This document shows positions 7,101 to 8,902 of a stretch of DNA of 12,886 nucleotides, piece by piece (the first letter of the stretch is position 1; the number at the start of each line of letters is the position of its first letter). The notes under the pieces are model-generated. The model worked only from the letters and a program-made list of their open reading frames with translations, was not told the DNA's origin and did no database searches. The stretch is from positions 262,672 to 275,557 of the forward strand of contig JADLKH010000004.1 in the NCBI GenBank assembly GCA_015657435.1, read 5' to 3'. The position numbers and the translations under genes are program-made. The stretch is from Synergistales bacterium. GTDB taxonomy: Bacteria; Synergistota; Synergistia; Synergistales; 79-D21.

Positions 7101-7176
7101 TTCCATGGGACTTTATCTCCCATGGGATTTTTTCTCCCATGCAACCCTCGCCCATAAGCCCCGTAAGGGCATGCCT
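7101..7176. repeat. 17-bp-period palindrome array, block A (CCCATGGG type)
   Basis: Five CATG-centred dyads have centres at 7105, 7122, 7139, 7154 and 7171, giving spacings of 17, 17, 15 and 17. The first two are CCATGG with flanking complementary bases. This is the same word that dominates block C, 1.6 kb away. No coding potential is visible. Confidence 0.75.
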
Positions 7177-7365: not shown

Positions 7366-8334
7366 TCCCCATGAGGGGAAATGCTGCATGGGGTTTTTAT
7401 CCTCATGGTCATTTTTTGCCCATGGTCAGGATCTCGCCACGGTCTGAAAGTGGCCATGGTCTGATAACGACCAGGGCTGGCTACATATATGAGCTGGCTA
7501 CGAAGTTGATCCGGTTAAGAAATAAAGCCGGTTGCCAATTGGAGCCGGTTCAAAAATTGAGCATGTTCCTAAATAGAGCATGCGCTGATTGAAAGCATGT
7601 CCTGAAATGGAGCATGTCGAAACTCTGGACTGGTCTATACCTTGGACTAGTCGGAGGGTTGGACTACAGGAAGTAGCCTTGGAACGAAAACCGTACCGGT
7701 CACAGAACCGGACCGGGACGTAGAGAGTAACGGGACGCCAGAAGTACCGGAACGCAGAGAGGATCGGTCCGAAAAGAGTGCCGGCACGGATATAGCACCG
7801 GAACGTATATCGGACCAGGTCTTAAGGGCCACGTTTCCATCTCAGGCACCCCTGACAACCCGTCACCCCTGACAATTTGTCACCCCTGACACGGTGTCAC
7901 CCCTGACAAAACATCACCTCGGACTTTCTGTCCCCCCGGGCTCAAAGACCGACCGGGCAGAAAAACCGATAGGGCTTTAAGCCTATCCGGGCATAGAGCC
8001 CCCGGACAAATTGTCCGCCCGGACAGATTGTCCCATCGGACAAACAGTCCCCCGGGCAAAAATGCAACGGGAGGGCACTGGTGTCGTTTTGCCACTGGTG
8101 TTCTTTTGACACTAGTGTTCTTTTGCCACTGATGCTTTTGCGACACTGGTGTCATAACGACACTGGTGTATTTTCTGCTCCGGTGCACATTCCGCTCCGG
8201 TGCAGATTGTGTTCCGCAAAGGCGCCTGTTGGGAATTTCCACATGTTGGTTATTCCGACATGTCGAAAATACCAACATGTTGGAAAAATCTACATGTAGC
8301 TATAACCGACATGTCAGGAATTCACACACGTTGA
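7366..8334. repeat. 17-bp-period palindrome array, block B (about 57 units)
   Basis: Short dyad-symmetric words recur with centres almost exactly 17 bp apart, from 7371 to 8328. Runs of exact 17s include 7371-7473, 7512-7665, 7680-7918, 7937-7988, 8079-8215 and 8243-8328, with a few 15, 16, 20 or larger steps. The usual unit is a roughly 10-bp palindrome plus a 7-nt variable spacer. The palindrome changes block by block: CATGGTC; CCGGTT; GCATG; GGACTAGTC; ACCGGT or CCGG; GTCACCCCTGAC in five near-identical copies; CCCGGG; GGAC-N5-GTCC; CACTGGTG; CTCCGGTG; CATGT. Near 8256-8299 the units CGACATGTCG, CAACATGTTG and CTACATGTAG differ by paired, symmetry-keeping changes. A 17-bp period is not a multiple of three, and open frames inside do not look like protein, so I call it noncoding. 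Confidence 0.85.
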
Positions 8335-8349
8335 GCCCTCGATCTTGAT

Positions 8350-8690
8350 GGCCCTTTTTATGGGTCCAAATAATTCCTTCCCGTATATAAGGTTAGAAAA
8401 CTCCCCATAAAGGTTCGATTTAGCCCTATAGCTAATACTCCTAGCCGTTTATCCGCAATGCTTTTTATAGTTCGGAATATTTCACGGGCGGAACCGTGCC
8501 ACCCCTTTTTATCGTGCGGTAAAACTCCTTTTTATAGTGTCGAAAAAGTCCTTTTTTATCGTGGGAAATAACTCCACGATTCCCGAGAAATCTCTTTTTT
8601 ATCGTGCCGAAAAACTCCCGGAGGACTAGGCACAGCCCTTTTTTATAGCGTCAGGAAACTGCCTCTTTTTATCGTGGAAGAAAACTCCCC
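8350..8690. repeat. Origin-like iterons, about 22-bp period (TTTTTATcGTG)
   Basis: A different repeat interrupts the palindrome array. T5-6 AT words have their A at 8360, 8467, 8511, 8534, 8558, 8601, 8645 and 8671. Most spacings are 23-26 or close to multiples of 22 (43, 44, 44, 107). The consensus is roughly CTTTTTATCGTGnnGnAAAACTCC. The missing positions hold degenerate or inverted copies, such as CCACGAT at 8574-8580 opposite ATCGTGG at 8558-8564. TTATCCGCA (8449-8457) is one base from a DnaA box. AT-rich iterons at about two helical turns are typical of plasmid-type origins bound by an initiator, and no initiator is recognised in the window. Confidence 0.7.
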
Positions 8691-8705: not shown

Positions 8706-8902
8706 GCACATGTGATTCCCACGCACATGCACTTTCTGAGCACATGTGCGTTTTAGACCCATGGGTTTTTTACGCCCATGGGTGTAGGAGACCCGTGGGT
8801 GTTATCCACCCATGGGAGATATTATCCCAAGGGAAGAAAAGTCCCATGGGAGAAAAAGTACCATGGGATAAGGGATCCCATGGGAATATTTATCCCATGA
8901 TG
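8706..8902. repeat. 17-bp-period palindrome array, block C (12 units)
   Basis: Twelve units run without a phase error, with centres at 8710, 8727, 8744, 8761, 8778, 8795, 8812, 8829, 8846, 8863, 8880 and 8897. Each has a 10-bp dyad and a 7-nt spacer. The first three are GCACATGTGC-like and the rest CCCATGGG-like. The outer base pair changes from A/T (ACCCATGGGT) to T/A (TCCCATGGGA) across the block, which keeps the symmetry. The GGGT or GGGA half of one unit also complements the ACCC or TCCC half of the next across the spacer, so 5-bp stems with 7-nt loops are an alternative structure. A near DnaA box, TTATCCACC, falls at 8802-8810. Confidence 0.88.

Follow-up and report, generated by a model that had tools for sequence, protein, structure and literature searches.

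How can a run of palindromes keep its spacing and its self-complementarity while the letters of the palindromes change? The question is raised by a 12,886-nucleotide stretch of a Synergistales genome (herein the window). The source genome (2.68 Mb in six contigs) has Synergistaceae bacterium UBA5827, of the order Synergistales, as the nearest named relative found. Within the window, about 2 kb separate the gene for an Xer-like tyrosine recombinase (6141 through 7037, plus strand; up to 298 amino acids) from a convergent gene for an orphan protein of 443 amino acids (9093 through 10424, minus strand). No gene was recognised in this interval, which holds a main array of dyads (block A), a set of iteron-like repeats, and a second array (block B). 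Our analysis suggests that the shape of the array is kept rather than its letters, through either a copying process or a selected fold.

Geometry of the array

Block A (7346 through 8320, no strand assigned) consists of 57 imperfect dyads with a period of 17 bp. An indel-tolerant chain search places their centres between 7354.5 and 8311.5, with 46 of the 56 steps exactly 17 bp; the preliminary description, which gave about 57 palindromes at this spacing, was right on both counts. The chain's score of 54.4 compares with a maximum of 8.4 among 25 dinucleotide shuffles and with 11.5 for the next best of the periods tried (13 to 23.5). One run within block A has an unbroken-chain score of 15.8; the best unbroken chain elsewhere in the source genome reaches 11.4 at any period and 8.3 at period 17 (415,001 bases in 21 stretches). 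The dyad-score autocorrelation of positions 7366 through 8334 is 0.329 at lag 17. Across 300 dinucleotide shuffles of the same segment its mean is close to 0 (SD 0.032), and it never exceeds 0.085 at lag 17, or 0.123 when all lags from 10 to 60 are considered. The excess of dyad symmetry over shuffled controls on which the preliminary description had staked its claim is therefore present. By autocorrelation, the recombinase gene and part of the 443-residue protein's gene (9093 through 10100) are without a lag-17 dyad signal.

The array had been placed at 7366 through 8334; it continues past 8334, and further units lie at 8710 through 8898 and at 7101 through 7141. The former make up block B (8702 through 8906, no strand assigned), which is of the CACATGTG / CCCATGGG type and keeps exactly 17 bp over 11 clear units and one weak last unit. 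Its lag-17 autocorrelation is 0.50 (shuffle maximum, 0.23) and its unbroken chain scores 21.3. The latter are three CCCATGGG-type units at 17 bp on the plus strand, downstream of the recombinase gene; the first two (7101 through 7127) form a terminator after that gene, with a 10-bp stem and a T6 tail. Between blocks A and B lie the iteron-like repeats of about 23 to 25 bp (8503 through 8690, plus strand; CCTTTTTATCGTG type).

An origin of the array in faulty assembly is extremely improbable. The source assembly is indeed in six contigs and 85.6% complete, but the units differ from each other, the array lies inside a contig of 730,718 bases, and collapse or expansion of repeats would not create retained pairing between changing arms.

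The dyads are real and mostly imperfect, which corrects the preliminary description: 218 of the 342 arm cells of block A pair with their own partner, a figure that is favoured because the chain was chosen for own pairing. The 52 units with a contiguous centre (40 in block A, 12 in block B) have 5-bp arms, with pairing of 0.79, 0.88, 0.65, 0.67, and 0.58 at positions 1 through 5 outward; further out, pairing falls to about 0.3, which leaves a free spacer of 7 nt. Centres vary among CATG, CCGG, CTGG, and CTAG. The palindromic word does not, however, change completely, as had been claimed: of 39 contiguous-centre units in block A, 36 have C at −2 and 37 have G at +2, giving a near-constant C-N-N-G, while every other position carries at most 0.63 bits. 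From about 7842 to 8052 the contiguous centre is lost, and 13 units around 7842 through 8044 pair mainly at positions 3 through 6 (0.77 to 0.92); this sub-block, with its arms further out (7850 through 8053, no strand assigned), is of the GACAnnnTGTC / GTCAnnnnTGAC type.

The carrier element and its sister

The recombinase resembles XerC and XerD, with scores below the cut-offs of those families. It shares 45 to 54% identity with the best 12 of 3437 plasmid records and the top two of 579 phage records, collections that consist of plasmids and phages only and so do not imply that the family is confined to them. A partial match of 51% lies on a chromosomal contig of another Synergistales genome, and no close relatives were found in viral contigs. 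Just upstream of the gene, a 28-bp inverted repeat (6119 through 6146, plus strand) is the probable 11-6-11 core site of the enzyme. Its arms agree at 10 of 11 positions, a level matched by 1 of 200 shuffles of the upstream stretch (12 of 200 for the site in the sister element described below). The upstream stretches of 10 plasmid and phage relatives give best arms of 9 to 11 of 11 in five and of 7 to 8 of 11, the shuffle level, in the other five; two sites (L488 and L496) stand clearly above shuffles, three are marginal, and five are at chance. Core site and recombinase together may constitute a multimer-resolution system. At these relatives' 10 plasmid and phage loci no dyad chain scores above 9.4, except at L497, where the chain of 21.2 falls in a pentapeptide-repeat gene; no link between the array and the recombinase was thus found.

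Two further genes bear on the nature of the element: one for an excisionase-type helix-turn-helix protein (5863 through 6045, minus strand; TIGR01764, above cut-off) and one for a primase-helicase with Toprim and AAA_25 domains (11142 through 12881, minus strand), whose frame continues past the window. From these and the recombinase we infer a plasmid-like or phage-plasmid-like replicon held in the chromosome; its ends were not found in the source genome. The 443-residue protein forms a single cluster, itself, among 2722 candidates, and has no relative in viral contigs. It has one weak match in 1 of 100 other genomes, on a contig (L009) that has only a plain direct repeat.

Elsewhere in the window, positions 827 through 4072 encode a His-Xaa-Ser peptide system in which the radical SAM maturases HxsB and HxsC score above their cut-offs; an HxsA-like precursor, below its own cut-offs, terminates in a GSH repeat. 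Words of the ATTCGGACA type recur in 11030 through 11220, some of them in an 11-bp tandem repeat (11122 through 11164), around where the primase-helicase gene has its 3′ end and the next frame its 5′ part. At L004:7320-10913, outside the window, a gyrB-like gene has an in-frame insertion that by eye resembles an intein.

One close sister of the element was found (L030), integrated at a tRNA-Val gene and equipped with a second integrase. The two align over 6118 through 7346 of the window (84%) and again from 10496. Between the aligned parts, only the iteron-like repeats and one CCCATGGG stretch match the sister (E 1e-3), and the 443-residue protein has no counterpart there. At the corresponding place after its recombinase gene, two CCCATGGG units, likewise 17 bp apart, and a T run are present in the sister. 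Its iteron-like repeats (L030:13070-13210) are conserved in inverted orientation, although the surrounding DNA does not align. The search of relatives for arrays at the same locus, which the preliminary description had called for, gave none in this one sister: the array is absent, and the best dyad chain there scores 7.9. The array thus occupies an interval in which the two elements, the only ones found, are unlike each other. By eye, two perfect palindromes 17 bp apart stand at the start of the sister's variable region (L030:14641-14700), possibly by chance.

These comparisons bear on the idea that arrays A and B are part of a replication origin or packaging region. They lie on both sides of the iteron-like repeats at 8503 through 8690, which the sister conserves, and the element has its own primase-helicase; the sister, however, retains those repeats without the arrays. 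We regard this explanation as quite improbable. More generally, a sister that lacks the array argues against an essential role as centromere, origin, or packaging region.

Drifting letters and persisting pairing

Pairing in block A depends strongly on which arms are brought together. Permuted right arms pair at 114.6 ± 8.4 cells, against 218 for a unit's own arms, and exchange of right arms with units 1, 2, 3, and 5 away gives 191, 165, 154, and 119 paired cells. In the 50 of 57 units that stand in unbroken runs of at least four, direct similarity falls from 0.69 at 17 bp to 0.37 at 136 bp (eight units). In the same units inverted similarity starts at 0.676 for the core and 0.645 for the spacer and is down to about 0.44 at a distance of five units. 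Complementarity between arms therefore declines with distance much as direct similarity does. A clear example of drift lies at 8260 through 8312, where one position reads GC, AT, TA, and GC across successive units.

Neutral tandem duplication alone was rejected as the source of this pattern. Its simulated inverted similarity is flat with distance, at about 0.48 when direct similarity is 0.70 (highest of 40 runs, 0.62), and at long times it drops to 0.21 to 0.27, below the observed values. The claim that geometry outlasts sequence is in this respect supported, and because plain duplication fails to give distance-dependent complementarity, pairing seems to have been restored repeatedly. Simulations with selection for core pairing and simulations with inverted copying both retain inverted similarity, and the former fit about as closely as the latter; neither alone fits all the numbers. 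With inverted copying only, adjacent pairing is too high (0.73 to 0.91) and decay is faster than observed, so that direct duplication has to be added. The two models are not separable by these simulations. The preliminary description had taken the kept property to be a selected one, serving an RNA, ssDNA, a centromere, packaging, or a dimer target; that the property is retained stands, whereas its selection does not follow, since mutational copying could also retain it.

The reading that we favour, and hold tentatively at somewhat less than even confidence, is that template-switch (quasipalindrome) correction together with tandem duplication maintains the tract, the interval between the convergent genes being a variable one. 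In Escherichia coli, template switching has been documented as a process that perfects quasipalindromes (PMC7202029), and a role for it in the creation and upkeep of hairpins that show compensatory changes has been proposed (PMC8794818); for the array, the process is read from the pattern of letters and not from an observed event. The tract would be a self-correcting chain of alternately complementary arms of 4 to 5 nt, about 8.5 nt apart. Short palindromic units, possibly derived from a terminator such as the one at 7101 through 7141, would have been multiplied by tandem duplication to give it its length. As the comparisons above show, arms remain complementary to their neighbours on either side while the letters drift off over five to eight units. 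During replication, the nascent strand would at times fold onto a nearby inverted arm and copy it, which would restore complementarity and transmit spacing and pairing, not letters. The tract would be tolerated where it stands, as the interval between the recombinase gene and the convergent gene differs between the two known elements, and two-way termination of transcription would be a plausible side effect or a co-opted use.

The distribution of defects agrees with template switching: 103 of 300 cells are unpaired in cores and 91 of 264 in spacers (50 even-centred units), equal rates that are expected if neither dyad is privileged. The sister without an array at the locus also counts in its favour. 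Against it stands the C-N-N-G centre, which varies much less than the rest of the arm, a feature that would not be predicted from blind copying. Compensated double changes from one unit to the next count against it as well. Cores have 11 of them, a number reached by 101 of 2000 shuffles (null, 5.9 ± 2.5), and spacers have 5, at the null level of 5.5 ± 2.5; this borderline lean to the core dyad favours selection. So does a slight excess of G-T over A-C mismatches (36 and 22; permutation P of 0.07 for the difference and 0.02 for the ratio; 27 and 21 with runs counted once), a weak hint at pairing in a plus-strand RNA.

The last two observations would be expected of a selected string of hairpins in RNA or ssDNA, in which the fold would be what counts: between the convergent genes it might serve as an insulator or a two-way terminator, for instance, or it might belong to a structured RNA. 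Folding lends this explanation further weight: as RNA, the two strands fold far better than the 20 shuffles made of each (z of −8.8 and −7.8), and as DNA the minus strand reaches z −5.3. Terminator-like sites number 15 in 5300 through 10600, where 6.3 ± 3.1 are expected, and 7 of the 15 fall in the two arrays, which hold nearly 70 units. Yet the two strands fold about equally well, a search of the window with Rfam 15 gives 0 matches at the gathering score, and the sister lacks the array. In addition, pairing in contiguous-centre units is strongest at the central positions (0.79 and 0.88), which would fall in the loop of a core hairpin and could serve as stem bases only if hairpins span spacers. 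We consider a selected hairpin string the main alternative, though less likely than not; the data do not separate it from template switching, and some of them lean toward it.

Symmetric sites in double-stranded DNA offer another account, in which the units would be candidate sites for a dimeric binding protein in an operator, centromere, or nucleoid array. Sharp 10-bp dyads, the near-constant C-N-N-G centre, and AT-rich spacers would suit such a protein, and the element encodes a helix-turn-helix protein of excisionase type. Several features fit poorly: the rest of the word changes (CATG, CCGG, CTGG, and CTAG centres), around 7842 through 8052 the contiguous centre is lost and the pairs move outward, and spacer dyads are paired as often as core dyads. 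The array is, moreover, missing from the one sister, though recombinase and primase are common to both. An array of dimer sites is improbable.

Relation to known repeats and occurrence elsewhere

The array has a fixed period and neighbours more alike than distant units, and in this it agrees with tandem repeats and minisatellites and counts as a tandem repeat. It differs from them in that units eight apart share 37% of arm letters while the dyads persist. Tandem Repeats Finder splits block A into six short separate pieces; because an ordinary repeat finder breaks it up, the repeat type may be under-reported. Coding tandem repeats with a 25-residue unit also have dyad-symmetric tandem units and are linked to mobile elements in some taxa, but the 17-bp unit of the array cannot keep a reading frame. 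Like the REP elements described in PMC3733652, the array is made of short extragenic palindromes; REPs are described there as 20- to 40-bp repeats in many copies per genome, whereas the array is one tandem block whose units share little sequence. In the passages of PMC7202029 and PMC8794818 on which we draw, quasipalindrome template switching is treated for RNA genes or individual inverted repeats and not for long arrays in tandem.

Three other assignments were rejected. In a CRISPR array the units would not drift as these do (direct similarity from 0.69 to 0.37), and the free spacer is only about 7 nt; a Pfam scan of nine window proteins gave no Cas families. Plasmid iterons are ill matched by units without one recognisable word, and the separate repeats at 8503 through 8690 fit that class better. 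Core sites of Xer or other tyrosine recombinases do not account for the array either, the best core-arm match within 7355 through 8900 being only 8 of 11.

Tandem repeats and quasipalindrome correction have both been described before, and the long drifting array is a novel form built from them; none comparable appears in the titles and abstract openings of the open-access papers listed. Self-correcting inverted-arm arrays may form a new repeat class, a possibility that we put forward with considerable reserve, in which local inverted copying during replication would transmit spacing and pairing while the palindromes drift through sequence space. Its members, as found so far, would be one long array in a bacterial mobile element and short ones in viruses. 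Where paired bases change in a compensatory manner, a selected RNA structure is the usual conclusion; with nearly seventy adjoining units, an array of this kind would make it possible to ask whether complementarity can persist through mutation alone, without selection.

Searches for similar sequence gave little. Four CATG at 17 bp and the GACA/TGTC pattern each match only the source genome among 185 Synergistota genomes, and 50,697 phage and 72,556 plasmid records contain nothing that matches 7366 through 8900 at the nucleotide level at E 0.01. Viral contigs in IMG/VR contain stretches of four CATG at spacing 16 (57), 17 (35), and 18 (at least 120), which shows no preference for a 17-bp period among viral CATG repeats. 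Of those analysed further (56, 35, and 80, respectively), two arrays at each of the three spacings combine pairing beyond CATG with a mean unit identity below 0.85. Other viral scans returned 12 stretches for the CCCATGGG pair, 72 for GACA/TGTC, and, at spacing 17 alone, at least 120 for four CCGG. A dyad-chain scan gave 122 chains in 469 sequences, among which were several overlapping copies of the window; by eye, many of the chains are AT-rich, GC-rich, or coding stretches or plain tandem repeats.

Three viral contigs, picked by eye and without a shuffle control, carry arrays whose words change while the dyads persist: L066 (period 17, 10 units, 43 of 60 cells paired), L124 (period 16, 13 units, 53 of 78), and L125 (period 16, 10 units, 42 of 60). 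Compared with block A they are much shorter, use other words, and have few adjacent compensated changes; in L066 such changes occur only at the last, doubtful unit. L066, a phage contig, has three tandem palindromic arrays (849 through 1002, 3490 through 3560, and 4500 through 4640); the two that lie between genes have period 17, and the one within an open frame has period 15.
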